In this document: one piece after another, positions 132 through 16,878 of the stretch
Numbering within the stretch: the first letter of the stretch is position 1
Layout: the number at the start of each line of letters is the position of its first letter
NCBI RefSeq assembly: GCF_000422505.1
Contig: NZ_KE383865.1
Coordinates: 158,726-222,725 of the forward strand
Direction of reading: 5' to 3'
DNA: 64,000 nucleotides
DNA from: Paenibacillus pinihumi DSM 23905 = JCM 16419
Lineage (GTDB): Bacteria > Bacillota > Bacilli > Paenibacillales > Paenibacillaceae
Translations under genes and position numbers: made by a program
Notes under the pieces: model-generated
Database searches by the model: none
What the model was told of the DNA's origin: nothing
Seen by the model: only the letters and a program-made list of their open reading frames with translations

Positions 132-941
132 ATGAAAAAAAACAGGCGAAGCAAAATCAGCAAGCCAAGAAAGCCGCTTTTTTACACGGCGGACCCGCGC
201 ACCTCAGAGCTTAAATACCTGGATGAGCTGAAAAAAACGTCCGCAAACAGCAGCAAGGAGCAGCCGCCGCGCAAGCCGGTCATGATCCATTCCGTTGTCG
301 CGGATTATGAGACAACGAGGCAGAGTTCTCCGCAGGAGAAGCACCAGGTGAGCCGGACCTCCGCAGAGCCAAGCATCAAGATTATCGAGCATGCCATCAC
401 AACTACAGAGAATCAAAAGGCCGGCAGCACAACCATCGAAAAAGTTACCATCGGGGAAGCCAAGCTGGAGCAAGTGGAAAGCAAACTGCAAGCATCTCTT
501 ATCCCCATTCAGGAGCAGCCGCAAGATCATGGATTTAGCGATGCCGCAATACAGTCACGTTCCGTTGCAAATGAGACCAATGAAGAACAGGTGTTGTCCA
601 TGCAGGCACAGGCTGTACAGGCGGCAGACAATACCGCGAGCAATCCCGATGTATCCAACCTTCAACAGACCTCGGGGGGCGGCTACTGCTGTGGTGTCAC
701 TTCGTTTACGCTGCCGGACAGGGTCGACCGGATTCATGTGGGTCTCGTAATGCCGGATTCGTTCCGCTCCATGCTGGGCAGGAGTGCAAACTACGCGTTG
801 ACTGCCGCTTGTAATCAACCGGGCTGTCAGATTTTCATCGCCTCCAAATCTGCCGCGGGTGCCACTATTGCCATTGTACGCAATAAACAGGACGGCATCC
901 TGACAGGTGAGCTGAACTGGATTGCGGCCCGGGTACAATAA
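132..941 (+). CDS. Hypothetical protein with basic N-terminus, head of spore-glycan island
   Basis: 269 aa, family not recognised. The first 17 residues are basic (MKKNRRSKISKPRK), residues about 20-185 are polar, Glu/Gln/Ser-rich and probably disordered, and the last 75 or so residues look globular, starting at a CCGV motif and ending in a hydrophobic segment (GELNWIAARVQ). No signal peptide or membrane segment is visible. GAAGGGAAGAG lies just before the ATG and a strong terminator follows, so it looks monocistronic. The basic N-terminus resembles the tags on the glycosyltransferases downstream, which suggests a related location, but no function can be assigned. Confidence 0.7.
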   Translation: MKKNRRSKISKPRKPLFYTADPRTSELKYLDELKKTSANSSKEQPPRKPVMIHSVVADYETTRQSSPQEKHQVSRTSAEPSIKIIEHAITTTENQKAGSTTIEKVTIGEAKLEQVESKLQASLIPIQEQPQDHGFSDAAIQSRSVANETNEEQVLSMQAQAVQAADNTASNPDVSNLQQTSGGGYCCGVTSFTLPDRVDRIHVGLVMPDSFRSMLGRSANYALTAACNQPGCQIFIASKSAAGATIAIVRNKQDGILTGELNWIAARVQ

Positions 942-970
942 ATGCCAGATTGGGCAAATGAACATCAATC

Positions 971-1009
971 AGGTCTTTGCATCGTTATGATGCAAGGCCT
1001 GTTTTTTTT
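971..1009 (+). terminator. Rho-independent terminator
   Basis: AGGTCTTTGCATC pairs with GATGCAAGGCCT across a 5-nt loop, a 12-bp stem with one bulged T and one G-T pair, followed by eight T. It sits 30 nt after the preceding gene and separates it from the glycosyltransferase operon. The rest of the gap up to the next gene (1010-1325) shows no convincing gene. Confidence 0.85.
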
Positions 1010-1325
1010 ATCTCAAGCCGTGTAGCAGCCCACCCATATTCGTATCGGTTTTTATTGGCATCTGCCTTGTCCGTCATACCTGTATTCCTCAACGCCATGC
1101 GAACTGGCCGTCCGCCCGAAAAACCAAAGGCGAGAGTTCTCTCCGACCTGTACAAATGCCGTTGCGTGGAATAAGCACTGGCATACAATGACTCGTATAA
1201 GTACATTTCAAAAAGTGCCTATTCCGCAAGTCGGAATGGCTTTGAAGAACGGAAGGCTAGTCGGACTTTATGTGCAATTCAAGTGATAAGCCGGGATATG
1301 CCGGCCCGGGCCAGGAGGTGATGAT

Positions 1326-2162
1326 ATGCGCAAAACGGCGGCAAAACGAAGCGGAGCTGTATCGAGCAAAGGGCGTTCCTCTACTTTGCTGCGGAGAGGC
1401 TCCCGTTTGACTATTGTGAACTCTGAAGATCCGCTTGTATCGGTAATTATTCCTTATATGAATGAAAAACGGCTGATCCGCCGAATTATTCGCGAGGCCA
1501 GAGCCGTCCACCCAAGGACGGAAGTAATTATCGTTGCCAACGGCTCCACCAGGGAATCACTGCGTACAGTGCTAGGCAGTGGAGCCAAGGTGCTCGTATA
1601 CAATGAAAGGCTGGGCCATGATGTAGGCCGCAGCATTGGCGCTCAGGCAGCATATGGGGAGGCATTGTTGTTTATCGATGCTGATATGGTGATTTCATCT
1701 GCACGGCTGCGACCCTTTGTGCAGGCAGTACTATCCGGGTCGGCCGATGTTGCGCTGAACGACTATTCCGGCCCTACCGGGAAGTTGGAGGTGCACCGTG
1801 TAGTCTTGGCCAAACATGCCCTGAATGCCATGCTGGGCCAGGAGTCGCTGAAGGGCGCTTCCTTGACTGCGATCCCTCATGCCATTAGCCGCAAGGGGCT
1901 CGCAGCTGTTGGTCCGGAATCTCTTCTGGTCCCTCCACTGGCTCAGGCCAAGGCCATCCAGTTTGGATTAAAGGTGAAAGCCGTTCATTCGGTACAGGTA
2001 GGCAAGCTGAATCCGATTCGAAGAAAGCGCGAGAAGCAATTCTCACTGGCCTCGGTTATTGTTGGAGACCATCTGGAAGCGTTGGATTGGTGGACTGGTG
2101 CTACGGATGATCGCGGGGGGATGGAGGATTTCAGCAGGAAACGTCATATTCTGGGGGGATAA
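1326..2162 (+). CDS. Family 2 glycosyltransferase with basic N-terminus
   Basis: 278 aa. Residues 1-28 are Arg/Lys/Ser-rich; a GT-A fold starts near residue 37 (VSVIIPYMNEKRL), with the nucleotide-sugar acidic motif LLFIDAD near 116-120, then DVALND and an IPHAISRK segment. GT2 enzymes transfer a sugar from an NDP-sugar to an acceptor; donor and acceptor here are unknown. An AGGAGGTG site lies 5 nt before the ATG. It is first in a tight operon and is a paralogue of the next gene (shared VGRSIGA/VGRALGA, ALND and IPHA segments). No membrane segment, so a cytoplasmic or spore-associated enzyme is likely. Confidence 0.85.
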   Translation: MRKTAAKRSGAVSSKGRSSTLLRRGSRLTIVNSEDPLVSVIIPYMNEKRLIRRIIREARAVHPRTEVIIVANGSTRESLRTVLGSGAKVLVYNERLGHDVGRSIGAQAAYGEALLFIDADMVISSARLRPFVQAVLSGSADVALNDYSGPTGKLEVHRVVLAKHALNAMLGQESLKGASLTAIPHAISRKGLAAVGPESLLVPPLAQAKAIQFGLKVKAVHSVQVGKLNPIRRKREKQFSLASVIVGDHLEALDWWTGATDDRGGMEDFSRKRHILGG

Positions 2163-2163
2163 G

Positions 2164-3396
2164 ATGGCTACGCTGGCGAAAAAACAGCCTGGAGCAAGAC
2201 ACATCTCTCCCGGCAAAAAATCGACGGTTCGCAGCTCATCCGGCTCGATGCCGTCCCGGATAAGAGGTTCCAGGGGCGGCAGTTCCGCAGCTTCCGGACC
2301 GGCAGGGACGGCTTCACGCAAGCGCCGCCGTGGTTCAACCGGAACTGCGCTGCGAAGTCAGGGAGGCTGGTATAAGAGAGGGAAGCTGTCAAAGGCAGCA
2401 TTCCGGGCTGCGTATGCTTTGGGCCAGGCAAGTGCGCGGGAGCTAAAGCAGGAGCAGCAAGAAGGCGGGAGACAGCAGTTGCTCAAGAACGGCTCGCAGA
2501 TCAGCCAGACCATGAATGCTGCCTTCAGCAAAAGTAGGGCGGGAAGGCGCGATGCTTCCTTCTCCGCGATTTTACGTGAGGGAGCTGCATTCCGCAATGG
2601 CTTCATGGATGCATGGGGAGAAGGATTGGCCATGACTCCTTATGTACTGCTGCCGCTAAGAGGGACGGCAGCTGCAGTTGTAACAGTATGCAATGAGGAG
2701 GATTCAATCCGCCAGGTGTTGCATGAGCTGAAACTGCTGCCGCTGACCGATATCATTGTGGTCATTAATGGCTGCACGGATCATAGCTTTAAATATACCA
2801 TGGAGTTTGAAGGTGTTACTGTGATCCATGAGCCTGAGGCGCTGGGGCTGGATGTGGGCCGCGCGCTTGGTGCCAAATTAACGAAGGCTGATACTGTATT
2901 GTTTGTAGACGGCGATTTTCCCGTCTCTGCCTGGCAGCTTGCTCCTTTCCTGCTTGCTGTGGATCAGGGAGTGGATGTCGCGTTAAATGATGTTACCCCT
3001 TATCTTGGGGCTTTTAAATACTGGGATGCTGTTTCCCGTGTGAAACAATTTTTAAATTGTTCGCTGGACCGTCCCGATCTGGTCACGAATTCAATGACGT
3101 GTATCCCTCACGCATTGTCACGGCGGGCGCTGGATACAATCGGAGAGAGTACGCTTGCCGTACCTCCCAAAGCACAAGCTGCTGCTCTGGCGGCCCCGCT
3201 GAAGGTTCAGGCAAGCGCTAGTATAAATGTCTTTATGAAAAACCGGCGTCGTAATCAAAACGTTGGCTCAGGCAATCCGGTAGCCCGCCTGATTATTGGT
3301 GATCATATTGAAGCATTAAAAAGTATTCAGCGCAAGCAGGGGTCCAGATTGTCCTTTGCGGACCGGGTAAGGCGCAGAAGTCAGGCAGGGGGATGA
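2164..3396 (+). CDS. Family 2 glycosyltransferase with long polybasic N-terminal extension
   Basis: 410 aa from the ATG 1 nt after the preceding stop (GGGGG just upstream); an in-frame start at 2059 would overlap the previous gene by about 100 nt and is less likely. Residues 1-75 are Lys/Arg/Ser/Gly-rich with an SRKRRRGS stretch, residues 80-160 hold Ala/Gly/Gln helices (AAYALGQASARE, FRNGFMDAWGEG), and the GT2 domain begins near 177 (AAVVTVCNEEDSIRQ) with the acidic motif LFVDGD near 248-251. It resembles the upstream GT2 in its catalytic half. Substrate unknown. The extension belongs to the polybasic tags seen throughout this island. Confidence 0.85.
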   Translation: MATLAKKQPGARHISPGKKSTVRSSSGSMPSRIRGSRGGSSAASGPAGTASRKRRRGSTGTALRSQGGWYKRGKLSKAAFRAAYALGQASARELKQEQQEGGRQQLLKNGSQISQTMNAAFSKSRAGRRDASFSAILREGAAFRNGFMDAWGEGLAMTPYVLLPLRGTAAAVVTVCNEEDSIRQVLHELKLLPLTDIIVVINGCTDHSFKYTMEFEGVTVIHEPEALGLDVGRALGAKLTKADTVLFVDGDFPVSAWQLAPFLLAVDQGVDVALNDVTPYLGAFKYWDAVSRVKQFLNCSLDRPDLVTNSMTCIPHALSRRALDTIGESTLAVPPKAQAAALAAPLKVQASASINVFMKNRRRNQNVGSGNPVARLIIGDHIEALKSIQRKQGSRLSFADRVRRRSQAGG

Positions 3397-3400
3397 ATTT

Positions 3401-4147
3401 ATGCAGTTGACGAGCATTGTAATACCAACATACAACAAACTTCCCCTTCTTCAGCAGGCTGTTGCAGCTATTCGCACCTACACACGTATGGATGAGACTC
3501 CCTATGAGATTGTTGTAGCAGACAATGGCTCCCAAGACGGCACTGTCGAGTGGTGCAGGCAGGAGGGCCTGAGATTTGTGGCCTTGCCATATAATGCAGG
3601 CTTTCCTGTTGCCTGCAACAAGGGGATGAGAATGGCATCCGGGGACTTTTTTCTGCTTTTGAATAATGATGTGACTGTCACAAACAATTGGCTCCCCAAC
3701 TTGCATCGGGCATTGGCATCAGATTCCAGAATCGGAATTGTTGGCCCTGTCTCCAATTTTGTCAGCGGCAAACAGCAGGTTGAATGCTCATTTAGAACCA
3801 TGGAGGAGTTTCAGCAGCTGGCAGCCTCGGTAAATGTACCGGATTCCCGCAAGTGGGAGGAGACAGAGCGTCTGGTTGGATTTTGCCTGCTCTTTTCCAG
3901 AGCATTTTACCAGCAAATCGGCGAGCTTGATGAATGCTTTTCACCGGGGCATTATGAGGATGATGACTTATGCTTCCGGGCACGAAAGATGGGTTACAGG
4001 CTGCTGTTCTGCCGTGATGTTCTCATTCACCACATCGGAAGCGCCAGCTTTAAGAATCAGGATACAGCCGGGCTGCAGGAATTGCTGCAGCGAAACCGGA
4101 AGTTATTTATGGAAAAATGGCAGATCGATCCCCATATTTATATTTAA
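3401..4147 (+). CDS. Family 2 glycosyltransferase (rhamnosyltransferase-like)
   Basis: 248 aa, a nearly bare GT2 domain without the polybasic extension. It begins MQLTSIVIPTYN, has the nucleotide-binding DNGSQDGT stretch, the LLLNNDVTVTNNWL acidic motif near residues 83-96, and the late GHYEDDDLCFRARKMGY segment that supplies the catalytic acidic cluster in rhamnosyltransferase-like GT2 enzymes. The start is 4 nt after the upstream stop. The catalytic part of the gene at 7017 is a clear paralogue. A rhamnosyl or related 6-deoxyhexose donor is a guess from family resemblance and from the adjacent rmlAB genes. Confidence 0.85.
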   Translation: MQLTSIVIPTYNKLPLLQQAVAAIRTYTRMDETPYEIVVADNGSQDGTVEWCRQEGLRFVALPYNAGFPVACNKGMRMASGDFFLLLNNDVTVTNNWLPNLHRALASDSRIGIVGPVSNFVSGKQQVECSFRTMEEFQQLAASVNVPDSRKWEETERLVGFCLLFSRAFYQQIGELDECFSPGHYEDDDLCFRARKMGYRLLFCRDVLIHHIGSASFKNQDTAGLQELLQRNRKLFMEKWQIDPHIYI

Positions 4148-4221
4148 TTGTGCTCTGATTCGTTTTAATCCACTGCTCGGCAAATCGGCCGGTCAGAGGT
4201 TTATGTTTGGGAGGGATGGTT

Positions 4222-4950
4222 TTGAAGGCAGTTATTTTGGCCGGGGGAACTGGAACCCGGCTGCGTCCTTTAACAAGTTACTTAAACAAGCATATGCTGC
4301 CCGTGGGCAAATATCCGATGATTCTTTATTCGATCCGCAAGCTGAAGGAAGCTGGAATAACGGACATTGAGCTTGTGACTGGAAGAAGCAGTGCAGGCTT
4401 GTTTACAGAATTTTTAGGAAGCGGCCGTGATGAGGGTGTTTCCCTGACCTACCGTATCCAGGAGGAGGCTGGCGGCATAGCGGAGGCGCTCAAACTGGCG
4501 GAGCCATTTGTCGGGTCGTCCCCCAAGTTTGTCATGCTGCTCGGCGATAATTTGTTTGAAGAGCCGCTCACAGCTCACATTGAGGCCTTCGGCGAACTGG
4601 AGGAGGGAGCAATGGTGCTCCTCAAGCAGGTTCCAGACCCTCACCGTTACGGTGTGCCGGAATTTGATGCAGGGGGCGAGACCATTGTCTCCATTACGGA
4701 GAAACCGGCTGATCCCAAGTCCAATTTTTGTGTGACCGGAATTTATATGTACGATTCATCCGTCTTCTCATTTATCGACCAGATCAAGCCTTCCCGGCGG
4801 GGGGAACTGGAGATTACCGACGTAAATAATGCTTATGCTTCAAAAGGACAGCTCCGTTTCCGCACGCTGGCAGGCTGGTGGACGGATGCGGGCACATTTG
4901 ATTCCCTTCATGAGGCGGCCAGCCGATTAAGAGAGGGGGAACCGGAATGA
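4222..4950 (+). CDS. rmlA: Glucose-1-phosphate thymidylyltransferase, SpsI/RmlA type
   Basis: 242 aa if translation begins at TTG 4222, giving the canonical MKAVILAGGTGTRLRPLT; GGGAGGG at 4209-4215 is 6 nt upstream, while the ATG at 4216 touches the site and is less likely. The nucleotidyltransferase signature, the substrate segment MLLGDNLFEEPL, the VPDPHRYGVPEFD region and ITEKPADPKSNFC are all present. It makes dTDP-glucose from dTTP and glucose 1-phosphate. The length matches the short SpsI-type enzymes rather than the 290-aa RmlA. It overlaps rmlB by 4 nt, so the pair should be co-translated. Confidence 0.9.
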   Translation: MKAVILAGGTGTRLRPLTSYLNKHMLPVGKYPMILYSIRKLKEAGITDIELVTGRSSAGLFTEFLGSGRDEGVSLTYRIQEEAGGIAEALKLAEPFVGSSPKFVMLLGDNLFEEPLTAHIEAFGELEEGAMVLLKQVPDPHRYGVPEFDAGGETIVSITEKPADPKSNFCVTGIYMYDSSVFSFIDQIKPSRRGELEITDVNNAYASKGQLRFRTLAGWWTDAGTFDSLHEAASRLREGEPE

Positions 4951-5957
4951 GTACCTCAAAGCTTCTTGTAACCGGAGGCCTTGGGTTCATTGGCAGTAAT
5001 TTTATCCGGTATATGCTTAAACGGTATCCTGGCGTCTCCATTGTAAATTTCGACGCGCTGACTTATGCGGGCAATCCGGATAATCTGCAGACATTTGAAT
5101 CCGATCCCCGCTATCGCTTTGTCCATGCGGATCTGACAGATGCAGGAGGGGTCGCTCAAGAGGTGGCTCAAGGGTACGATGCCATTATTCACTTTGCCGC
5201 GGAGTCCCATGTGGATCGCAGCATAGCGGACCCGGGACGCTTCGTTCAGGCGAATGTAGTCGGCACCCATCACCTGTTGGAGGCTGCCCGCAAATATGGT
5301 ATTCCACGTGTAATCCATATATCTACGGATGAGGTATACGGTTCGCTTGAGGCTAATGATCCGGGTTTTACGGAGCTGACCCCTCTTGCGCCCAACAGCC
5401 CATACTCAGCCAGCAAGGCATCCTCCGATTTGTTGGCCCGTGCGGCCTACCATACGTATGGTCTGCCTGTCATTATTACCCGTTGTTCCAACAATTACGG
5501 TCCATACCAATATCCGGAGAAGCTGATACCGACCATTATTACGAAAGCCATGGCCGGCCAGCCAATCCCTGTATATGGAGACGGACTCAACGTAAGAGAT
5601 TGGCTTCATGTAGAGGATCATTGTGCTGCCATAGATTTGGTTCTCCAACACGGGACTCCTGGTGAGGTCTACAATATTGGCGGGGAAAATGAGCGTACGA
5701 ACCTTCAAGTTGTTAAGAGCATATTGCAGACACTGGGTAAATCGGAAGAATTGATCACATTCGTCAAAGACCGTCTTGGCCATGACAGAAGATATGCCAT
5801 TGACGCATCAAAAATAAAATCAGAGCTTGGATGGCAGCCAGAGATAGCCTTTGAGGAAGGGATCAAGACGACGGTAGATTGGTATGTTCACCACCAGGAC
5901 TGGTTGAGCGCCATTATCACACGGCAGGAACGGATTAACGGCAAGGGGTTGAGCTGA
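4947..5957 (+). CDS. rmlB: dTDP-glucose 4,6-dehydratase
   Basis: 336 aa extended SDR. The Rossmann motif GGLGFIGSNF opens the protein, followed by FDALTYAGN, HFAAESHVDRSI, the TDEVYG catalytic segment, YSASKA (Tyr-x3-Lys) and TRCSNNYGPYQ(Y)PEKLIP, all diagnostic of RmlB. It converts dTDP-glucose to dTDP-4-keto-6-deoxyglucose. ATGA overlap with the upstream rmlA and a 1-nt overlap with the following gene. No rmlC or typical rmlD is found in the window, so the final sugar is open. Confidence 0.95.
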   Translation: MSTSKLLVTGGLGFIGSNFIRYMLKRYPGVSIVNFDALTYAGNPDNLQTFESDPRYRFVHADLTDAGGVAQEVAQGYDAIIHFAAESHVDRSIADPGRFVQANVVGTHHLLEAARKYGIPRVIHISTDEVYGSLEANDPGFTELTPLAPNSPYSASKASSDLLARAAYHTYGLPVIITRCSNNYGPYQYPEKLIPTIITKAMAGQPIPVYGDGLNVRDWLHVEDHCAAIDLVLQHGTPGEVYNIGGENERTNLQVVKSILQTLGKSEELITFVKDRLGHDRRYAIDASKIKSELGWQPEIAFEEGIKTTVDWYVHHQDWLSAIITRQERINGKGLS

Positions 5958-6985
5958 TGAAACGGCGGGCCCGGCGCAAAGTATCCTCTTTGAGTGTCCG
6001 CATCAAGAGCGGATCGAGAAAATCATTGCAGAAGCGGCAGACTGGCAGCAGGGGCAGGAAAATCGTATCGGCTGCTGGCGGAGCCAGAACGAGAAGGAGG
6101 CGGGAACCTGCTGCTGCACCTTCGATGCAGGAGCAGCCAGCAGCGGAAATGTCGTCCTTGCAGCAGCATTATCTGGAGGAAGGCCGGCAACTGGGGCGTT
6201 ATGAGGGAGGGGAGGAACTGCTTGAGAGGGCGGTTCCTGCCGATCTTCTGCTCCCCGAGATTACGCTGGAGGAAATCATCAAGGCAGGCATAATGTCGAT
6301 TCAAGACCGATGTATGCCGCTGCTTAATGTCCAGCAAGTCTATGACAGGCTTCACCAGGCCATGGAACAAAAAAGCCCCTGTTCAGTTGTAAGATTGGGT
6401 GATGGGGAATTGCTCGCCTTGGCCCAGGATACGGTCTACAGTACGGAGCAGGTAGCAGCAGAGGGAAGCTTTTTGTCTTATGCGGGAATCCAAGTGCCGG
6501 ATCTCTCTGCCAGAGATACATTATCACATGCCATCCGGTCAGCAGATATCATTGGGGTACCGTTATCCCGGCAGAAAAACTATCATCCGCTTCTGCACCC
6601 GGTTTTAAGAGCCCATCATATTGAACTGAATGAGCAGCATACCACCTCTTCAACCATTAACTACAGTCTGCAGCAGACTGGCATGCTGCAATCCCTGATC
6701 CGCAGCCGTTCACTTCTGCTTATTGGCAATGCAGCGCCTGAGCTGGCTCAGGTAATGACGGTGCTCGGCTACAGGGTTAGCGGCGTAATCGCACCGGTTA
6801 ACGGATTTGCAGATATAGACCGGGTCATCGGAGAAGCCAGCGGGCATTCATTTGATCTTGCCCTTGTGTCCGCAGGCATTCCTGCCGTCGTGATCACTTG
6901 GCGGATTGCAGCGGAGCTTGGCAAGGCTGCCCTGGACTTCGGGCATCTAGCTAATTTTATATCAAGCGGACAAATGTCTATATAG
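5957..6985 (+). CDS. GT-D fold glycosyltransferase with polybasic N-terminus
   Basis: 342 aa. Residues 1-55 are extremely basic (MKRRARRKVSSLSVRIKSGS, then TRRRRE), and residues 65-80 carry YLEEGRQLGRYEGGEE, a Gly-spaced variant of the island's GY tag. The catalytic part begins near 135 with CSVVRLGDGELLAL, the R-x-GDGE signature of the GT-D (DUF1792-like) family, followed by DIIGVPLSRQKNY and a Rossmann-like LLLIGNAAPEL segment. Members transfer hexoses in surface glycan or glycoprotein assembly; the substrate here is unknown. Overlaps rmlB by one base. Confidence 0.75.
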   Translation: MKRRARRKVSSLSVRIKSGSRKSLQKRQTGSRGRKIVSAAGGARTRRRREPAAAPSMQEQPAAEMSSLQQHYLEEGRQLGRYEGGEELLERAVPADLLLPEITLEEIIKAGIMSIQDRCMPLLNVQQVYDRLHQAMEQKSPCSVVRLGDGELLALAQDTVYSTEQVAAEGSFLSYAGIQVPDLSARDTLSHAIRSADIIGVPLSRQKNYHPLLHPVLRAHHIELNEQHTTSSTINYSLQQTGMLQSLIRSRSLLLIGNAAPELAQVMTVLGYRVSGVIAPVNGFADIDRVIGEASGHSFDLALVSAGIPAVVITWRIAAELGKAALDFGHLANFISSGQMSI

Positions 6986-7016: not shown

Positions 7017-8585
7017 ATGGACCCGAAGAAGCAAAGCACGAACGGGCTGAACCGGCCGGAACTACCGAAATTGCCGAAACTGCACCAGTCCAGCCCGCTC
7101 AATCCCAAGCCCAAGCAAATAGAAAAGCAAAAGTCAAAATCAAAGCAAAAACTAAAATCAAAGCAAAAACTAAAACCAAAGCAAAAGCAGCATCGCTTAA
7201 AACCCAAGCGGACCAAACAACCTGTACAAGTGCAAACGGAGCAGGAATTGAACTCGCCACAGCCTCAGACGGCTGCTACAGCCTATCAGTCAGGCTATCA
7301 AACAGGCTATGAGGCGGGGGTAGCAGCGGGATCTGGCAGCTATGGAAGCTATTTTAACGGAACAAGTATTATTATTCCGAGCTATAATCAGGGAGAGTAC
7401 TTAAAGCTTTGTATAGATAGCATCATTCAGCATACCCGACTGCCCTATGAGATTATTGTCGTGGACAATGCTTCTGAAGATGGAACTGCAGATTATTTGC
7501 ACAGCATGGCAGGACGTGTCCGCTACCGGATACTGGAGGAGAACCGCGGTTTTTCTGGGGCGGTGAATACAGGTTTAATGATGGCCAAGGGCATGAGGAT
7601 GCTGCTGCTGAATAACGACACACTGGTCACGGAGAACTGGCTGGAAAATATGATGGCTTGTCTCGACAGTGACAGTCGCATTGGTATGGTCGGGCCGGTC
7701 ACCAACTTCATCAGCGGGCTGCAGAAGGTCGATGTTCCGTACACCAAGGTTGAGGATATGCCAGCATTCGCCATCCAAAACAATAGATCTGATCCTTCCC
7801 GATGGCAGCGTGTAGACCGGCTGACCGGATTTTGTCTTCTATTCCGGCGTTCACTGTGGGAGAGGACAGGATATTTCGACGAAGGCTATCAAATCGGAAA
7901 TTATGAGGATGATGATTATAATATTCGCGTCAGGCTGCAGGGGTATACGCTGGTTATCGCCCGTGACGCCTTTATCCATCACTTTGGGAGTGTCAGCATG
8001 AAGGCTTTGGGGGAACAGAAGTTCCTTCAGGTCAATGCGATTAATGAGCAGTACTTCTTGAACAAATGGGGAAATCCAAATGAACTGGTTCAGCATATAA
8101 GGGAGCTGAAAGCGGAGCATCACCCGGACGGGCAGGTCACATATCCTGTTCCCCTTGCCAGTAGTGAAGCAGGTTTTCAGCCGCAGTATGTTTTGATTAA
8201 AGGGCTGGGGGATACCTTATACTGGCTGGAGCACGGACACCGCAGGCCAGTTGAGGCAGCAGAGGGCCAGCAGCTTCCGATCCAGGCATTCCGAATCCCG
8301 GTAGTGGATTTAATACGCTGGCCGATTGGTGAGAAAATAACAGCTTCTCAGGTACAGGAGAAATGGCAGCATGAAAATTCCCCCAATGAGGGGCAGCTTG
8401 TTTCATCAGCCGGACGGTTATATTGGCTGGAGCAGGGTATACGCCGCAGGATCGTGAGCGGGCTCGCAGCATCCATGTGGGGGATTAACAGTAAATCGTC
8501 TGTTCAGATGGATGAATCTGACCTGCTTCATTGGCCGGAAGGACTGCCGGTCATCGCACCTGTCAAAATGGTGCAAAGGTTATAA
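7017..8585 (+). CDS. Family 2 glycosyltransferase with Lys/Gln-repeat N-terminus and C-terminal YWLE repeats
   Basis: 522 aa from ATG 7017, which has AAGGAGG 8 nt upstream; the in-frame ATG at 6993 lacks a site. Order: Lys/Gln low-complexity block (about 20-65, repeats of KSKQKLK), a GY repeat (YQSGYQTGYEAGVAAG, about 85-100), GT2 domain from about 119 (IIIPSYNQGEYL) with LLLNNDTLVTENWL near 198 and GNYEDDDYNIRVRLQGY near 296, then two related repeats of about 45 residues (LYWLEHGHRRP and LYWLEQGIRRR). The catalytic part is a paralogue of the GT2 at 3401. The repeats also occur once in the GT4 at 15271. Last gene of the first operon; a hairpin follows. Confidence 0.85.
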   Translation: MDPKKQSTNGLNRPELPKLPKLHQSSPLNPKPKQIEKQKSKSKQKLKSKQKLKPKQKQHRLKPKRTKQPVQVQTEQELNSPQPQTAATAYQSGYQTGYEAGVAAGSGSYGSYFNGTSIIIPSYNQGEYLKLCIDSIIQHTRLPYEIIVVDNASEDGTADYLHSMAGRVRYRILEENRGFSGAVNTGLMMAKGMRMLLLNNDTLVTENWLENMMACLDSDSRIGMVGPVTNFISGLQKVDVPYTKVEDMPAFAIQNNRSDPSRWQRVDRLTGFCLLFRRSLWERTGYFDEGYQIGNYEDDDYNIRVRLQGYTLVIARDAFIHHFGSVSMKALGEQKFLQVNAINEQYFLNKWGNPNELVQHIRELKAEHHPDGQVTYPVPLASSEAGFQPQYVLIKGLGDTLYWLEHGHRRPVEAAEGQQLPIQAFRIPVVDLIRWPIGEKITASQVQEKWQHENSPNEGQLVSSAGRLYWLEQGIRRRIVSGLAASMWGINSKSSVQMDESDLLHWPEGLPVIAPVKMVQRL

Positions 8586-8699: not shown

Positions 8700-8987
8700 A
8701 TGCAGCGTAAGGTCGATGAGATTATTGAACATCTGTCCAACTCACATCAGCAGCTTGCCCGCGTATTGGAAGCCAAAAGGCATGTGGCGGTTCGGATGTC
8801 GCAGATTGTACATGACATACCGGACCAGCATCCAGAATTGGATGGGTTCGACGGGTTGGTGGATAGTGCTCAGGTTGTCTCCAAAAGCGTTGTTTCGTAT
8901 TTAAATAGTCTGGCAGATTTACAAGAAACAATTGCTGATAACCTGTCGCATGTTATGAAGGAGCTGGCTTCCCAGGAAGAGGAATAA
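8700..8987 (+). CDS. Small helical protein, paralogue 1 of 3
   Basis: 95 aa, family not recognised. It is almost wholly predicted helix with heptad-like hydrophobics (IIEHLSNSHQQLARVLEAKRHV) and an acidic end (ELASQEEE). GGGGAGGG lies just before the ATG at the proper distance. The next two small genes encode proteins of the same style (a run of L/I/V with an A(R)ILEAK or ARILN core near residue 20-25), so this looks like a local three-gene expansion. No signal peptide, membrane segment or cysteines. Lying within the glycan island suggests a structural or adaptor role, which is inference only. Confidence 0.7.
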   Translation: MQRKVDEIIEHLSNSHQQLARVLEAKRHVAVRMSQIVHDIPDQHPELDGFDGLVDSAQVVSKSVVSYLNSLADLQETIADNLSHVMKELASQEEE

Positions 8988-9068
8988 AGCAGATGGAGAA
9001 CTCCTACAGACTGGACTGAATTAGATAGTAGGAGCGATTACACAGTTGACTGCTTGACTATCACCATG

Positions 9069-9095: not shown

Positions 9096-9100
9096 TGCGC

Positions 9101-9142
9101 GGAGATTCATAAGTGGAGATTCATAAGTAGAGATTCATAAGT
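9101..9142 (+). repeat. Three tandem copies of a 14-bp unit
   Basis: GGAGATTCATAAGT occurs three times head to tail (the third copy begins with A). It lies in the leader of the small gene at 9200. The unit contains GGAGA and CATAA, but no regulator is known for it. Confidence 0.85.
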
Positions 9143-9199
9143 ATTGAAGGATGTAAAAGAAGAAAATAAGAACCAAAGCGGAAAAGAGGTGGGGAGGCC

Positions 9200-9547
9200 A
9201 TGAGCCGGGAGCAATCTTATATGCGTGTGCTGGATGCTTCCGCAAAGCTGCAGTGGAACGTGGCGATGATTTTGGAAGCCAAGGCAGTGGAGGCAGAGAA
9301 GGTAAGGAGCTGGCTATGCAATCATATGACCTGTCAGGCGTTTAGCAGTCAGCAGGATCAACTTAAGGGCTCTATGGATGTGCATGATCAGCTCATAGAA
9401 GTAATTGAGGGATTAACCAAGCTGGGACAAGGCATGTCCAGCGTACTGAAGGTCGTATTGCAGCAGGATGCAGAGTCCGGCGGAGATAATATGGGCGGCA
9501 TGTATGGGGGCGGCGGCGGTTTTGATATGGGCTTTGGAGACAAGTGA
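9200..9547 (+). CDS. Small helical protein, paralogue 2 of 3, with Gly/Met-rich tail
   Basis: 115 aa, not recognised. Residues 1-90 are helical and resemble the proteins encoded on either side (VLDASAKLQWNVAMILEAKA, then EVIEGLTKLGQGMSSVLKVV). Residues 94-115 form a Gly/Met/Asp tail (GGMYGGGGGFDMGFGDK), flexible and without charge clusters. Two cysteines lie in a WLCNHMTCQAF segment. A GAGGTGGGGAGG site precedes the ATG. The stop overlaps the next start (TGATG), so the two are translationally coupled. Confidence 0.7.
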   Translation: MSREQSYMRVLDASAKLQWNVAMILEAKAVEAEKVRSWLCNHMTCQAFSSQQDQLKGSMDVHDQLIEVIEGLTKLGQGMSSVLKVVLQQDAESGGDNMGGMYGGGGGFDMGFGDK

Positions 9548-10041
9548 TGAGCCGTCTTGAGAAAGAATGGGAAATCAAAATGGAACTTATTGCGTCCATT
9601 ACGCAGAGCCAGGCTGCACTTGCCAGAATATTAAACAGTGTCGCTGACTTATCGGAGCATTCACCTGGAATGGCAAAAAGACTGCAAGATAATATGGCAA
9701 CATTAACGGGCCTTCAAGAAATGATTGCCCAGAAAATCGCCGGCATCAGCTGGCGGAGACCTTCCCGCGGGAAGCCGGGCCGCATATGGCTGGCTCATGC
9801 GAGGCTCGCAGTGGGCGGAAGGGATGGACTGGATTGTGACGGGAGGAATAAAGTTGATCAGGAAAAAGAAAACGGCTGGACGAAAAACAACAGGGGGTTC
9901 CAAGCGCAAACGCACATTGCGCCGCAAATCGATTACAGGCAGAAGGCTCAAGGCCAGACGCCGGACAGGAGCTTCCAGCAAGCTGAGAGCAGGCAAAAAG
10001 GGCAGGAGACGAATCAAAAAGCTGACCCGCGGCCGTATTAA
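9547..10041 (+). CDS. Small helical protein, paralogue 3 of 3, probably frameshifted after about residue 66
   Basis: The open frame gives 164 aa. Residues 1-66 resemble the two preceding small proteins (MELIASITQSQAALARILNS, LTGLQEMIAQKIAGI), but from about 9747 the translation becomes Arg/Gln-rich and merely shadows the basic gene that starts at 9854. In the -1 frame, from CAG at 9747, the sequence reads QLAETFPREAGPHMAG and stops at TGA 9837-9839, 14 nt before the next gene's start and just before its ribosome site. A one-base change near 9745, with an ancestral end at 9839, explains the layout best. The N-terminal part is a solid prediction; the end is uncertain. Confidence 0.45.
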   Translation: MSRLEKEWEIKMELIASITQSQAALARILNSVADLSEHSPGMAKRLQDNMATLTGLQEMIAQKIAGISWRRPSRGKPGRIWLAHARLAVGGRDGLDCDGRNKVDQEKENGWTKNNRGFQAQTHIAPQIDYRQKAQGQTPDRSFQQAESRQKGQETNQKADPRPY

Positions 10042-10183
10042 AAAACGCCGTATCATCCGTGTACCGGCTGCCGATGCAACCTACAGCCAAGGTTATGACA
10101 GTGCCTATAATGAGGGCTACAACTCTGGATTTGCCAAAGGCTTCGAAGACGGTCATCAACTCTCCTACGAACAGCAGCCATAA
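9854..10183 (+). CDS. Small polybasic protein with C-terminal GY repeat
   Basis: 109 aa from TTG 9854, with GGGAGG 7 nt upstream. Residues 1-68 are dominated by Arg and Lys (MIRKKKTAGRKTTGG, then RKSITGRRLKARRR and GRIKKRRIIR), histone-like in composition. Residues 75-102 carry YSQGYDSAYNEGYNSGFAKG, the same Gly/Tyr-spaced repeat found before the catalytic domains of neighbouring glycosyltransferases. No enzyme domain follows: the gene ends at a strong terminator. It is either a stand-alone carrier of the tag or the remnant of a larger glycosyltransferase cut short by rearrangement next to the repeat block. Confidence 0.7.
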   Translation: MIRKKKTAGRKTTGGSKRKRTLRRKSITGRRLKARRRTGASSKLRAGKKGRRRIKKLTRGRIKKRRIIRVPAADATYSQGYDSAYNEGYNSGFAKGFEDGHQLSYEQQP

Positions 10184-12858: not shown

Positions 12859-13995
12859 ATGCCAGCCCGTAAACACAGAAACCCGAAACGAAGGCCGCTT
12901 TATGACAGCGCGTTGGATACAGGATACAAAAACGGCTGGGAGCATGGAAGGAGAGATGGCGCCTGCAAGGCTATTTTGGAAAGCGTGGTTCCTCCTCAGC
13001 TCCCGCATTACAATTTGCGTATTTTGTACGTTCCACAAGGTTTTGAAGCGATTGATGCCGGAATTATCGGGGCATTGAAGGCGATGGTGAAGGAGCTTCA
13101 TATTGTAGGCGATTTGAATCAAATGTATGAAATGGCTTCTTCATTGCGCCCGGATTTCGTTGTCGTTCTTAACGGACTGCATATTTTTCCGGGTGATCAT
13201 CTGGAGCAGATTGATGCTATCCGTGCACTTAACATTAAGACGATGATCTGGTTTGTGGATGATCCCTATTCTTCAGAGGACAGTATCAAGATTGCCCCGC
13301 ATTATGATATTGTCCTAACTCATGAACTTGGGGCAGTCGATGCGTATCAGCAAGTGTCCAACGGACAGGTACACTATATACCGCTCGCCGTTCATACGGA
13401 CTGGTTTAAGCCGACGCGAATCGAAAACCAGTATATGAGTGATGTCTGTTTTATCGGGCAAGGCTTCTGGAACCGGATTGAGTTGTTTGATGATCTTGCT
13501 CCCAGCTTGAGCAGCAGGCGGGTCATTATTTGTGGAGGGCTATGGGACCGTCTGAAAAATTATGAGCTGTATGGAGATGCCATTCGCCCGGGATGGATGC
13601 CGGTTCAAGAAACGATTCGTTATTACAACAGCGCGAAGATTGTGATTAATTTGCATCGCACAACTGAGGCGGGATCCGATAACCGAAATACGCTCCAGCT
13701 TTCCGGACGCTCCATTAATCCGCGCACGTATGAAATTTCAGCCTGCGCAACACTGCAAATGGTCGATATCCGGGAGGATTTGAACCAGTATTACAAACCA
13801 GGTGTGGAGATCGAGACGTACGCCAGTGCTTCTGAGCTAAAGGACAAAATCGCATATTATCTGGAGCATGAGGATGAACGGCTTATGATCGCGCTTAGAG
13901 GGTTGAAGCGGACCCTGCAGAGCCATACCTTTTCGCTGCGGGTTCAGGAACTGCTCAATATTATTATGAAACAGGAGGGCATGCCCAATGGTTAG
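12859..13995 (+). CDS. CgeB-like glycosyltransferase with GY tag, copy 1
   Basis: 378 aa. Starts basic (MPARKHRNPKRR), then the tag ALDTGYKNGWEHGRRDG at about 17-34, then a two-lobe GT-B-type fold typical of the CgeB family: LRILYVPQGFEAID, MIWFVDDPY near 130, and the late segment INPRTYEISACATLQMVD near 285-302, where CgeB-like proteins have their conserved nucleotide-sugar site. In Bacillus, cgeB belongs to a sigma-K/GerE-controlled locus for spore outer-surface maturation (family knowledge). GGTGAC precedes the ATG. It overlaps the next gene, its paralogue, by 8 nt. Confidence 0.85.
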   Translation: MPARKHRNPKRRPLYDSALDTGYKNGWEHGRRDGACKAILESVVPPQLPHYNLRILYVPQGFEAIDAGIIGALKAMVKELHIVGDLNQMYEMASSLRPDFVVVLNGLHIFPGDHLEQIDAIRALNIKTMIWFVDDPYSSEDSIKIAPHYDIVLTHELGAVDAYQQVSNGQVHYIPLAVHTDWFKPTRIENQYMSDVCFIGQGFWNRIELFDDLAPSLSSRRVIICGGLWDRLKNYELYGDAIRPGWMPVQETIRYYNSAKIVINLHRTTEAGSDNRNTLQLSGRSINPRTYEISACATLQMVDIREDLNQYYKPGVEIETYASASELKDKIAYYLEHEDERLMIALRGLKRTLQSHTFSLRVQELLNIIMKQEGMPNG

Positions 13996-15142
13996 GAGCA
14001 CAAAGAAAGCATCTAAACGAATCATACGAAGACAGTCAAGAATCATACCTCCAAGAATTCTGCATCCGTATGAGCATGGAAGAAGGGACGGTCTGGCTAC
14101 TGGCTGGGATCATGGATACTGGTATGGCCAATGTGAGGCTGTTATTCAAAAAACGATCCGGCCCGCAGTTAAAAAGGATATCCATCTGATGTATGTGGCT
14201 ACCGGAAAAGGATTTCCTTACTCCCCGATAGATGAAGCGATTATTACGACGCTGTCTTCTGTCGTGTCTCATATCACGGTTACCGATGCTTTACAGGATG
14301 TCTCTCTGATCGCCAAGGAGAAGCGGCCGGATCTTGTGCTGGTGCTGGACGGCTTGCAGTTGGATCTTATCCACCCTAAGGAGATGAGAGCAGCAGGCAT
14401 CCGTACGGCTATATGGTTCACGGACGATCCTTACTATACAGATGTGACCGCTAATGTTGCCCAGCATTACGATCATATCTTTACGCTGGAGAAAACCTGC
14501 GTTGATTTTTACCGTCAGCATGGCTGCCAAAGTGTGCATTACTTGCCGCTAGGCTTCTATCCTAATGAATTCAGGCCTCGTAACCCGGACCGCAGCAGAC
14601 GCAAGGAAATTTGCTTTGTGGGAACCGCTTATTGGAAGCGGATTGAATTTTTTAATGAAATCTCTGATTATTTGAGCTCCAAGGACTCGCTGATCTCAGG
14701 TATCTGGTGGGACCGGCTGCCTAATTTTGAGCAGCTTGCTACTAAGATCGAGCTGAACAAATGGATGGGGCCGGCTGAAACGGCTGAGACCTATAACGGT
14801 GCCAGGGTTGTTATCAATATGCACCGGGCTCATGACGACGAAACTTTCAATAATAACAGTGCCAATATCCCGGCCGTGTCTCTTAATCCGCGTACTTTTG
14901 AAATATCCGGTTGCGGAACGCTGCAGCTCTCGGACATCCGTGATGATATGGAGCAGTTCTACACGCCAGGAGAGGAAATTGTCACCTACGCTTCCCCGCA
15001 GGAGCTAATCGAGAAGGCTGAATACTACCTGAATAATGAAGAGGAACGTCGCCGGATTGCTCTCAAAGGGCTATACCGGACGATGCGCGACCATACGTAT
15101 GAAAGAAGATTGGAAACATTGCTGACAATCCTATTCGGCTAA
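13988..15142 (+). CDS. CgeB-like glycosyltransferase with GY tag, copy 2
   Basis: 384 aa, tandem paralogue of the preceding gene. Basic start (MVRSTKKASKRIIRRQSR), then YEHGRRDGLATGWDHGYWYG at about 29-48, then the CgeB core with AIWFTDDPYYTD near 143-154 and the end segment LNPRTFEISGCGTLQLSD near 300. Note that EHGRRDG is identical in the tags of both copies while surrounding residues differ, which suggests selection on the tag itself. Probably a cytosolic or spore-coat enzyme that modifies a spore surface polymer. Confidence 0.85.
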   Translation: MVRSTKKASKRIIRRQSRIIPPRILHPYEHGRRDGLATGWDHGYWYGQCEAVIQKTIRPAVKKDIHLMYVATGKGFPYSPIDEAIITTLSSVVSHITVTDALQDVSLIAKEKRPDLVLVLDGLQLDLIHPKEMRAAGIRTAIWFTDDPYYTDVTANVAQHYDHIFTLEKTCVDFYRQHGCQSVHYLPLGFYPNEFRPRNPDRSRRKEICFVGTAYWKRIEFFNEISDYLSSKDSLISGIWWDRLPNFEQLATKIELNKWMGPAETAETYNGARVVINMHRAHDDETFNNNSANIPAVSLNPRTFEISGCGTLQLSDIRDDMEQFYTPGEEIVTYASPQELIEKAEYYLNNEEERRRIALKGLYRTMRDHTYERRLETLLTILFG

Positions 15143-15270
15143 TTGGGCAAATGTCACAGGGGTGCAAAGGCGGAGAGCTGCAAGCCGTAATTTGTACACT
15201 TGTTCACGGTTCAAATGTCGTGCCGATATGGCTGCCTGATTAATATATTGTTGGAGAAAAGCAAAAGGAG

Positions 15271-16878
15271 GTGAACACATACCCGAGCTTTGCAGGGTAT
15301 GGCAAGCAATTGGCAAATAGCAAACCGGTCTTGATTGCATTTTCCCATATCTGTGGTTCTGATTTTATCACCGGGGCAGAAAAGCTCCTTCTGTTCATGC
15401 TCCAGGAGCTTCAAAGCTCATACGAATGCAGGCTTGTTGTTCCAGAAGAAGGGATCCTCGCCAGAAAAGCCAGAAAGTCAGGCATTCAGGTCATTCTTTT
15501 GCCTATCCCGATCACGCCTGCGCTTTATCTGGCGGGTCCGTCCGCCAGCCAAGAGGCGGAAACGCTAAAGCATCACCCGGCATGGCCGGCTACGATTTCA
15601 TTGCTTCAGTCACACGGTCCGCAGCTTGTGCTTGTCAGTACCTGCGTCCACCCGTTGCCAGCTATGGCTGCCAAGGCACTCGGCATTCCGAAGATCTGGG
15701 CGGTTATGGAGACAATTACGGAGTCAGAACATACTTCACACGCCGCCTCTTTCATTCATCAGCATGCCGACTGGATCATAGGCATCTCGTCTACCACTCT
15801 GCGTCCATTCCATAATGCCGGCTTGGATGGCAAGACGACGATTTTGTTCCCTTCCTGGAATATGGAGGATTATCAGCCTGAAGCCTGGGTGGAGAACCGG
15901 GCAAGCAAGCGCGCAGAGTTGGGGTTTCATGACGGGCAACGGGTAATCGGGTATGTCGCCGCCTCGATCTATAAACGCAAAGGCTTTGAGGATTTCATGA
16001 GCATGGCGCTGCAGATCGGGGAACGCTTTCCGAAGGCGGTATTTGCAGTCATCGGCCATCCTGTGGAGAAGGAGCTTGTAGAAGAAGCATTTGACCGTGT
16101 ACGTGCTGCCGGGATGCTGAACCGGTTCCGCAGGGTTCAATTTGAACAAAGCATACAGAGAATCTATCCCGCTATAGATATTCTCGTTGTCCCAAGTCTT
16201 ATGCCCGAGGGCTTCGGTATGACCGCACTGGAAGGATTGCTGTTCGGGAAGGCTGTCGTTGCCTACGATTCAGGCGGACTGGGAGAAATTCTGAATCTTA
16301 CAGAGAATAAGAAATTTCTGGTGCCAACCGGAGAAGTAGACGGCCTGGTAAAAAAGGTGGCAAAGCTGCTGGACGATGAGAAACAGCTTGTCCAAACAGG
16401 CCTGCGCAACTCTTATAATGCACAGGCGGTATTCGGGATCGCGGCCTACCGCAAACGGCTAAGTCATTTTTTAAATCTGTTGGCCGTGAAGGGGCATACA
16501 CCGCTCCATCTGGTAAGAGGCTCTTCCCCGACAGTATATGTACTTGAAGGAGGCATACTGCGGCCTTTTGCTTCAGAAGAGGCCTTTCTAAAGTCCGGCC
16601 ATTCCTTTCAGGATGTGCGTACCATCACGGACGATATGCTGGATACATTCCCTCAGGGGGATCCGGTCATAGGACTGCCAGTTGCTGCCCCGGTAAGACG
16701 GAAGGCACGCAAAGGCAAGTATGGTCTCGTCAAGGGCAGAGGAAGAACAAGGGGGAGAAAGAAGAGGAAAGGCTTCAGCCAGTCCAACCGGCGTGTGAAG
16801 AAAGGAAGCGTAGCACGTCGTAAGCGCAGGCCGAAAGCCGCGTCCCGAACACGGACGAAGGGCAGACGGCGGGCGTAA
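15271..16878 (+). CDS. GT4 glycosyltransferase with YVLE repeat and polybasic C-terminal tail
   Basis: 535 aa. GT-B fold of family 4: N-lobe with HICGSDFITGAEKLLL, C-lobe with GYVAASIYKRKGFED near 228 and the donor-site EGFGMTALEGLLFGKAVV near 311-328 (E-x7-E). Then one copy of the repeat seen in the GT2 at 7017 (TVYVLEGGILRPF, about 420-470) and a 60-residue Arg/Lys tail (RKARKGK, RGRKKRKG, ARRKRRPK). The GTG start overlaps its own GGAGG; the only other in-frame start nearby is TTG 15310 (MANSKPVLIAFSH), so the exact start is uncertain. Donor and acceptor unknown. Confidence 0.85.
   Translation: MNTYPSFAGYGKQLANSKPVLIAFSHICGSDFITGAEKLLLFMLQELQSSYECRLVVPEEGILARKARKSGIQVILLPIPITPALYLAGPSASQEAETLKHHPAWPATISLLQSHGPQLVLVSTCVHPLPAMAAKALGIPKIWAVMETITESEHTSHAASFIHQHADWIIGISSTTLRPFHNAGLDGKTTILFPSWNMEDYQPEAWVENRASKRAELGFHDGQRVIGYVAASIYKRKGFEDFMSMALQIGERFPKAVFAVIGHPVEKELVEEAFDRVRAAGMLNRFRRVQFEQSIQRIYPAIDILVVPSLMPEGFGMTALEGLLFGKAVVAYDSGGLGEILNLTENKKFLVPTGEVDGLVKKVAKLLDDEKQLVQTGLRNSYNAQAVFGIAAYRKRLSHFLNLLAVKGHTPLHLVRGSSPTVYVLEGGILRPFASEEAFLKSGHSFQDVRTITDDMLDTFPQGDPVIGLPVAAPVRRKARKGKYGLVKGRGRTRGRKKRKGFSQSNRRVKKGSVARRKRRPKAASRTRTKGRRRA

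Follow-up and report, generated by a model that had tools for sequence, protein, structure and literature searches.

Two separable end modules on unrelated glycan enzymes of Paenibacillus pinihumi: a possible assembly tag linked to sporulation

Why should glycosyltransferases of different folds carry similar end segments? The question is raised by a 64,000-nucleotide stretch of the genome of Paenibacillus pinihumi DSM 23905 (contig NZ_KE383865.1, positions 158,726 to 222,725; this whole stretch is called the window and positions are counted from its first letter), in which a glycan cluster encodes GT2, GT-D, CgeB-like and GT4 enzymes with such segments and, among them, a small stand-alone protein, here named the hub. 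The end segments fall into two separable modules: a polycation that evolves fast, and a helix with glycine at every fourth residue, like that of FliH and Yae1, which is termed GX3. It is practically certain that the tag is real, conserved and specific, and fairly probable that it acts as an assembly or targeting module. The more definite proposal, that the end segments may serve as modular tags by which a sporulation glycan machine assembles, with pairing of GX3 helices and docking on the hub, is put at a probability of about 0.4 to 0.5.

The cluster spans 1326 to about 20870 on the + strand, according to the list of open reading frames (ORFs) and Pfam/NCBIfam profiles, in a host genome of 6.76 Mb and 45 contigs. 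Its proteins, referred to below by their start positions, are as follows.

1326..2162, + strand: GT2 glycosyltransferase (GT2a; PF00535), polybasic N-terminus only
2164..3396, + strand: GT2 glycosyltransferase (GT2b; PF00535), polybasic N-terminus and degenerate GX3
3401..5957, + strand: untagged internal controls, namely a GT2 (3401), an rfbA-like (4207) and an rfbB-like gene (4947), the latter two named by eye
5957..6985, + strand: GT-D fold glycosyltransferase (PF22882, E 6e-81; NF040628), polybasic N-terminus followed by a degenerate GX3 (EEGRQLGRYEGGEE) and the GT-D domain
7017..8585, + strand: GT2 glycosyltransferase (GT2d; PF00535), polybasic N-terminus, GX3 helix GYQTGYEAGVAAG, GT2 domain and C-terminal YWLExGxRRxI-type modules
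8700..8987, + strand: small helical protein adjoining the hub, untagged, kept in 50 of 80 loci, the possible head of a hub suboperon
9200..9547, + strand: small helical protein adjoining the hub, untagged, kept in 52 of 80 loci
9854..10183, + strand: the hub, a stand-alone tag protein of 109 aa, with a polycation of about 70 aa and then the GX3 helix YSQGYDSAYNEGYNSGFAKGFEDGH
12859..13995, + strand: CgeB-like glycosyltransferase A (Glyco_trans_1_2 plus DUF3880; PF13524, PF12996), GX3 helix GYKNGWEHGRRDGAC and short basic leader
13988..15142, + strand: CgeB-like glycosyltransferase B (PF13524, PF12996), polybasic leader and GX3 helix HGRRDGLATGWDHGYWYGQC
15271..16878, + strand: GT4 glycosyltransferase (PF00534), polybasic C-terminus of about 60 aa, GX3-free
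16926..20869, + strand: untagged nucleotide-sugar genes (UDP-GlcNAc 2-epimerase, Polysacc_synt_2, RmlD and epimerase, by Pfam)

The polycation is rich in Arg, Lys, Ala, Gly and Ser; it covers about 70 residues in the hub and has a mean length before GX3 of 32 residues in CgeB-like B and 34 in GT2 7017. In GX3, Gly (or Ala/Ser) stands at each fourth residue and an aromatic residue is often next to it. Enzymes with both modules show the order polycation, GX3, catalytic domain. Both are present on GT-D 5957, GT2 7017, the hub 9854 and often on CgeB-like 13988; 12859 carries chiefly GX3, GT2 1326 and 2164 chiefly the polycation, and GT4 15271 a polycation at its C-end. Within 25-aa windows near the N-end, net charge peaks at 8 for 132, 8 for 1326, 9 for 2164, 11 for 5957, 13 for 7017, 15 for 9854, 5 for 12859 (short) and 9 for 13988, and GT4 15271 reaches 15 near its C-end. 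The GX3 repeats are AYQSGYQTGYEAGVAAG in 7017, YSQGYDSAYNEGYNSGFAKGFEDGH in 9854, GYKNGWEHGRRDGAC in 12859 and HGRRDGLATGWDHGYWYGQC in 13988, with degenerate forms, both below the scan threshold, in 5957 (EEGRQLGRYEGGEE) and 2164 (FRNGFMDAWGEG). The same scan found neither module in the rfbA, rfbB and GT2 3401 of the window. Two other sites flagged for GX3 were rejected as tags, the one in 1326 lying inside the catalytic domain and the one in 9200 being a Gly-rich tail.

The sequence-only reading from which this analysis started had described one shared tag, with polybasic ends on all these proteins and on 132 and a Gly/Tyr-spaced repeat in five of them. The segments are real and shared, with a stronger case than was first made; the polybasic ends were recovered on most of the listed proteins, and the repeat is clear in 7017, 9854, 12859 and 13988; the description needs amendment in that there are two separable modules rather than one tag, that 132 is weakly basic and 12859 barely so (and its orthologues mostly not, 10/69), and that the repeat is degenerate and below threshold in 5957 and 2164. 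Its non-enzyme carriers fared differently: 9854 is a stand-alone copy of both modules, whereas 132 (132-941, + strand), whose N-terminus is weakly basic and which carries a WIAG-tail domain at its C-terminus (NF012201, 53 bits), is probably a different surface protein outside the tag system. A literature search found nothing on the WIAG domain.

Conservation was followed in the best 80 of 115 relatives (L059-L138), found with six peptide patterns, one of which lies inside the tag (GWDHGYWY), so that the 80 loci are somewhat biased for CgeB-like B itself and not for its neighbours. Locus genes were called as longest open frames, which leaves their starts uncertain, and orthologue denominators are the loci with a full-length domain. 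Matches were discarded if they spanned under 75% of the seed domain (5 of 86 for GT2d, 4 of 74 for CgeB-like A, 3 of 62 for GT4, 1 of 22 for rfbB, 1 of 56 for epimerase_2, 2 of 61 for RmlD, 4 of 58 for epimerase and 5 of 66 for GT2 20866). At least one module is found on 357 of 391 members of the seven tagged enzyme families versus 16 of 378 members of eight neighbouring sugar-enzyme families, counts that consist of related members and hence do not amount to 769 independent events. The N-terminal polycation and GX3 occur, respectively, in 37/47 and 0/47 orthologues of GT2 1326, 38/43 and 3/43 of GT2 2164, 40/42 and (over threshold) 20/42 of GT-D 5957, 33/52 and 41/52 of GT2 7017, 10/69 and 61/69 of CgeB-like A, and 37/80 and 73/80 of CgeB-like B, while the C-terminal polycation is kept in 57/58 GT4 15271 orthologues, none with GX3. 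The controls with any module are 0/42 for GT2 3401, 3/58 for rfbA, 1/13 for rfbB, 1/54 for epimerase_2, 0/55 for Polysacc_synt_2, 1/58 for RmlD, 1/53 for epimerase and 9/45 for GT2 20866; the small helical proteins, which stand outside the tally, give 3/50 (8700), 0/52 (9200) and 12/45 (9544).

The two modules evolve differently. In alignments of 39 and 34 sequences chosen among the orthologues (A2 and A3), the CgeB-like B proteins (39 sequences) have a pairwise identity of 18.6% in the polycation, 48.8% in GX3 and 59.5% in the enzyme, with a mean charge before GX3 of +8.3. Likewise, GT2d has 20.1% identity in the polycation at a mean charge of +9.9, and 40.1% in GX3. The polycation retains charge and not sequence; GX3 is conserved.

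The tag is also specific within the genome. A profile of 27 tags (A4), whose informative part is absence elsewhere since the window tags are among its rows, matched, at E up to 0.1, four places in the whole genome, every one of them within the cluster. A hub-only profile (A1) matched the hub at 1.5e-17, the tag of 7017 at 0.43 and that of 12859 at 1.2, the other places being the FliH gene at C1:527270 (0.52) and C3:172029 (0.66). The background was a 1.2-Mb sample of the same genome with 1024 ORFs of 100 aa or more; a charge of at least 9 is reached, by the same measure, by 6 of 15 cluster ORFs versus 16 of 1024 background ORFs (Fisher p 2e-7). A GX score of at least 9 in the first 200 residues is seen in 10 of the 1024, none with a polybasic end, and FliH alone among these ten fits the tag profile below E 0.5. 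Chance composition is rejected by the untagged neighbours and by this genome background.

Outside the family the same enzymes occur without the tag. A CgeB query free of the tag matched 46 genomes (21 in the family, 25 outside), of which the best 30 places were read, including 9 of the 25 outside; GX3 tags were present in 21/21 family loci versus 0/9 outside loci examined. In seven of these nine the catalytic domain starts no more than about 10 residues from the N-terminus (e.g. L193, 47% identity), and two (L194, L195) lie in longer frames in which GX3 is not over threshold. Because such homologues have the same domain, mostly start near it and are untagged, the tag is an add-on; as a part of the glycosyltransferase fold it is disfavoured for CgeB, none of the nine carrying it. 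Many of the same genomes have short-frame GT-D matches (mostly 236 to 300 aa), which would hardly have space for a tag. Among nine genomes from other families of the order, one per family, tagged clusters are present in three (f165, L273; f168, L272; f173, L274). Family f167 contributes a GT-D with the tag beside a basic GT2 (L279), and f171 an ORF resembling the hub (L281); charge, module order and glycines are retained in other families. The loci L275-L278 and L280, recruited by weak tag matches, have no tagged cluster, and L281 has only its hub-like ORF; genome G668 gave a single weak match and G671 none. Further enzyme types bear the tag as well: in Cohnella an APH-fold kinase near the cluster has an N-terminal GX3 tag (L106:11826-13028, L107:12288-13469), and a further GT4-like glycosyltransferase has a polybasic N-terminus plus GX3 (L134:13871-15055, L129:13680-15008, L137:13677-15005), as would be expected of a general address. 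The earlier suggestion that the tag persists while the enzyme folds differ is upheld by the orthologue tally (GT2, GT-D and CgeB-type), as is its conservation in orthologues (357/391 tagged versus 16/378 controls); nor is it scattered at random in the genome, where GX3 tags occur only here apart from the FliH repeat and polybasic ends in 16/1024 ORFs.

The hub consists of both modules and nothing else, and no other domain was found in it by Pfam and NCBIfam search. It starts at a TTG after GGGAGGAATAAAG (GGGAGG), a start supported by GGGAGGAATAAAGTTG and by a Met at the equivalent place in the P. roseus orthologue. The window and loci hold 75 hub ORFs, some loci having two. In 25 sequences the GX3 consensus is YxxxFxQAYNEGYNxGFAKGxEDGHQxAYxxQ. 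Residue frequencies in the hub are Gly 64% and Ala 29% at x0, Tyr 45% and Phe 35% at x1 (80% Tyr/Phe) and Gln 20%, Glu 16%, Asp 13%, Lys 12% and Ala 11% at x3; x1 is weaker in CgeB-like B (Arg 20%, Tyr 20%, Trp 10%, Phe 9%). The Gly spacing, the Tyr/Phe at x1 and the Glu/Gln/Ala at x3 of the FliH-type GxxxG motif are all present in the hub, and weaker in the enzymes. Membership of the FliH or Yae1 families was nevertheless rejected on profile cut-offs: with the longer frame from 9725, Yae1_N scores 16.3 bits (E 0.008) under a cut-off of 27.5 and NCBIfam FliH 19.5 bits (E 4e-4) under a cut-off of 293, and the FliH domain PF02108 is absent from the hub; Yae1_N on the tagged GT-D of L279 reaches 21.2 bits, likewise below 27.5. 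The genome's own FliH is encoded elsewhere, on C1 (L208). The hub is found in 127/148 family genomes and 17/19 genera, and in 94/94 genomes with a long-frame GT-D (a frame of at least 336 aa, 94/103) versus 33/54 others, lying within 5 kb of the GT-D in 72/94. A sample of 299 genomes of the phylum gave 28 hub matches at E 0.001, of which four, all of the same family, are at 1e-11 or better; the readable weak matches include several of about 250 aa with FliH-like repeats and three of 104-106 aa without a polycation. A plasmid-borne hub was looked for and no match was found in the plasmid collection. As a stand-alone copy of both modules, the hub is a candidate docking partner. Two hub genes per locus were seen in L090, L101, L102, L105, L120 and L273, and their GX3 helices differ, which might reflect separate partners.

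It is very likely that the tag system belongs to sporulation. The hub is present in 127/134 spoIVA-positive versus 0/14 spoIVA-negative family genomes, spoIVA being the one sporulation gene tested. There are 21 hub-less family genomes (the last, G147, inferred from totals), 14 of which belong to one genus (g8), all without spoIVA; this is apparently an asporogenous genus inside a spore-forming family, and the 134 genomes of the other 18 genera are all spoIVA-positive. The seven hub-less, spoIVA-positive genomes were compared, by tag-free queries, with 10 of the 127 hub-positive ones drawn from two of the same genera. A CgeB relative (E 1e-20) was found in 0/7 of the former and 8 of the ten latter, and a full-length GT2d in 0/7 (one 111-residue piece) and all ten. 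In these compared genomes 16/18 CgeB relatives are tagged, a count in which loci overlap and genes are counted twice; the two untagged are one G063 gene whose script-called start is at the domain. Of 12 GT2d proteins there, nine pass the GX3 threshold and three score 8. The system accompanies spoIVA, and spoIVA-positive genomes can lack it; the co-occurrence of the tag with these glycosyltransferases and with spore formation (spoIVA), which the sequence-only reading had put forward as a check, is thereby borne out. A YhcN/YlaJ sporulation lipoprotein is encoded at 24945, and CgeB is a family name familiar from B. subtilis spore genes.

Promoter-like sites fit mother-cell expression, which they support indirectly and in part. 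The sigma-K-type letters used were AC, a spacer of 14 to 17, and CATAnnnTA. A spacing of 14-16 stands in the text of one paper, with the letters shown in a figure (PMC517825). An initial scan, covering 250 bases upstream and 60 downstream of each start, found CATAnnnTA in 21/51 orthologues of 8700 (2.1 expected from shuffles) and 15/48 of 1326 (3.0 expected), with eight of the sites listed for 8700 inside the coding start; the stricter intergenic scan is the one used. In the latter this -10-type motif lies in 7/21 intergenic regions before 8700 orthologues, 9/38 before 1326 and 3/11 before rfbA, versus 18/218 before unassigned genes, and so is enriched before 8700 and 1326. The most enriched 8-mers, with one mismatch allowed and picked post hoc, include two words. 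One, GCATATAT-like, precedes CgeB-like A in 22 to 29 of 45 regions and is found in 5 to 13 of 218 elsewhere; the other, GTCGTGAC-like, is conserved in up to 22/41 regions upstream of GT4 15271 or an orthologue, as against 4/218 elsewhere.

Several known systems resemble parts of this one. In the Yae1-Lto1 pair, GX3 motifs of two different proteins facilitate the complex and Gly mutations decrease it (PMC4523923). The likeness lies in a glycine at every fourth residue in two different proteins, with the hub scoring below the Yae1_N cut-off; Yae1-Lto1 differs in being a eukaryotic Fe-S adaptor with no polycation and no enzyme set, and no homology to the hub is shown. The GxxxG repeats of FliH have Tyr/Phe at x1 in over 45% and Glu/Gln/Ala at x3 in about two thirds; helix dimerisation via the glycine face was proposed, and the 'extreme rarity' of such a repeat in other proteins was remarked on (PMC2674601). 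FliH/YscL and the hub share Tyr/Phe at x1, common Glu/Gln/Ala at x3 and a soluble helix with long glycine repeats, and FliH is the sole other such protein in the own-genome sample. However, FliH is a flagellar export protein whose domain the hub lacks, Glu/Gln/Ala at x3 make up 47% in the hub as against about two thirds in FliH, and the combination of a polycation with glycosyltransferases is peculiar to the Paenibacillus system. The spore crust polysaccharide genes of B. subtilis (sps, cge) comprise CgeB-like and other glycosyltransferases and nucleotide-sugar genes, and are tied to sporulation. The present cluster has the same kinds of genes and very likely the same tie, a CgeB-type enzyme (PF13524 plus DUF3880) standing together with nucleotide-sugar genes in synteny across the loci; it differs in its tag, since CgeB relatives from nine genomes outside the family are untagged and the phylum sample gave no strong hub match outside the order. 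In dockerin/cohesin systems and in the encapsulation peptides of microcompartments, a short shared terminal tag gathers unrelated enzymes on a scaffold; no sequence relation to these is claimed, and the scaffold here would be only a candidate, of 109 aa and with a single GX3 helix. The open-access literature yielded no description of the tag, hub or cluster in Paenibacillus, most subscription papers being outside its scope, which agrees with the initial impression that no such system had been described.

A mechanism may be proposed on this basis. A polycation that keeps its charge without its sequence, next to a conserved GX3, would suit a tether acting by charge with a packing helix behind it. 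The likeness of the hub to FliH in GX3 residue preferences, and the help that GX3 motifs give to the Yae1-Lto1 complex, are the grounds for proposing helix pairing. GX3 would form a helix with a glycine stripe and pair with further helices of its kind, as in Yae1-Lto1, so that GT-D, GT2 7017 and the two CgeB-like enzymes could assemble with one another and with the hub. The polycations of these proteins, of the GT2 pair and of GT4 would act by charge, tethering the assembly to something anionic on the spore as it develops, be it coat or crust or the anionic glycan itself, and the tagless nucleotide-sugar enzymes and GT2 3401 would be left unheld. The outcome would be a layer around the spore in which the enzymes are concentrated and make the glycan on the spot. 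Helix pairing, the hub as docking partner, electrostatic anchoring and the spore location are all steps that we infer, and the docking to an anionic spore layer suggested by the sequence-only reading is likewise a conjecture.

Several observations weigh against this proposal. Basic ends reach somewhat beyond the tagged set, to 12/45 orthologues of 9544 (10 of them C-terminal) and 9/45 of GT2 20866. GT2 1326 and GT4 are without GX3, most CgeB-like A orthologues have little charge, and GX3 of GT-D passes threshold in 20/42. The GX3 of CgeB-like B is nearly as conserved as the enzyme, with Gly39, 43 and 47 and Cys49 invariant in 39 sequences, and such conservation fits an intramolecular role as well. 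A search of the GX3 profile against solved structures returned four meaningless matches (E 0.59 to 1.7); the CgeB alignment A2 gave one weak match there, to CagM (E 0.004). As for sporulation, the loss of spoIVA is probably one event, being confined to one genus; seven spoIVA-positive genomes live without the hub, so sporulation does not need it; the hub-positive G012 and G073 have no CgeB relative; and CATAnnnTA was found in 0/45 regions before CgeB-like A and 1/41 before GT4.

The same facts may be read in other ways. Polycationic coat proteins such as CotB and CotG offer the model for one of these, in which the polycation and a Tyr/Gln-rich GX3 would be structural coat material and the enzymes would be cross-linked or phosphorylated into the coat with no specific docking on the hub. 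Charge conserved without sequence is in keeping with it, as are the Arg/Lys/Ala/Gly/Ser-rich hub, whose end often has Gln/Tyr-containing residues, and the CotH-family kinases, found twice in the own genome and in 117/148 family genomes. CotH is, however, also present in spoIVA-less genomes of g8 (G007, G039, G050, G099, G115) and so is untied to the hub, and the GX3 register and glycine spacing are conserved beyond composition, which renders this explanation rather unlikely. CotH as a partner of the hub was set aside as uninformative, some of the 117 genomes being hub-less. The invariant Gly39/43/47 and Cys49, and family-specific GX3 signatures such as GWxHGYWxGxCE in CgeB-like B, speak instead for an element intrinsic to each enzyme, where GX3 packs on its own catalytic domain or homodimerises while the polycation takes hold of the growing anionic glycan or a lipid-linked acceptor, with no shared docking; but outside homologues do with the same catalytic domain and no helix (0/9 examined), and the same element sits on GT2, CgeB-type and GT-D enzymes and alone in an enzyme-free protein, and this reading is judged unlikely.

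The glycosyltransferases with basic ends may use lipid-linked acceptors, which could suggest a peripheral membrane anchor, bound to anionic phospholipid in the outer forespore membrane or in that of the mother cell. Such an anchor appears improbable for polycations as hydrophilic as these (15.8% FILMVWY in the hub part); the hub has no other domain, and GX3 would be left unexplained by the anchor. Finally, functionless low-complexity drift in one gene neighbourhood would account for the poor alignment of the polycation (18.6 and 20.1% identity), but is barely credible: neighbours in the same operons are untagged, charge, module order and glycines are kept in other families of the order, and the untagged outside CgeB, the hub/GT-D co-occurrence, the other-family clusters and the tagged-versus-control tally largely refute it.

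The gene order of the cluster recurs, wholly or in long stretches, in many of the 80 loci, mostly of Paenibacillus and Cohnella, and is partial or rearranged in others (e.g. L103, L107, L110, L135); the nearest named relative found for the CgeB-like protein is that of Paenibacillus roseus, with 84% identity. Three successive small helical proteins without known family (8700-9774, + strand) lie beside the hub in 50, 52 and 45 of 80 loci and are candidate structural partners; for 9200, the profile search gave no family above cut-off. The third ORF (9544-10041, + strand) runs on without a stop, in a different frame, well into the gene of the hub, both in the window and in L059. An IS1595-type transposase (11055-11981, - strand) sits in the 2.7-kb gap between the hub and CgeB-like A and is probably an insertion into the cluster, as the same gap is only about 270 bp in the nearest relative, L059. 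The YWLExGxRRxI-type modules, which have no Pfam match, lie at the C-end of GT2 7017 (8229-8582, two copies by eye), with a similar stretch in GT4 15271 (16453-16700), both on the + strand. Outside the cluster, a DUF6492 protein (47839-48657, - strand) has a basic C-terminus (net 10 in 30 aa) and is perhaps another basic-tailed glycan enzyme; its gene adjoins a nucleotidyltransferase-plus-cupin gene at 46433 (mannose-1-phosphate guanylyltransferase-like).

Taken at its widest, the proposed assembly tag points to a recruitment system, so far undescribed, of the order around Paenibacillus, in which the hub would form a sticky layer on the forming spore, glycosyltransferases of three folds would plug into it by GX3 pairing, and the spore surface would become a glycan-synthesising organelle. 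The code would be open, because the APH-fold kinase and the further GT4-like enzyme share the tag in some species. This wider picture is tentative and somewhat short of an even chance. Recruitment of enzymes by a shared tag is itself of a known kind; if docking were demonstrated, one could speak of a new system, and of a bacterial use of GX3 helices beyond flagellar export. The tagged and untagged homologues are ready-made controls. How glycosyltransferases stay at the spore surface is, to our knowledge, an open question as regards the glycans of crust and exosporium. A tag that did dock enzymes would explain the retention of mother-cell glycosyltransferases there and would provide a short, genetically portable address with which enzymes may be put on spores.

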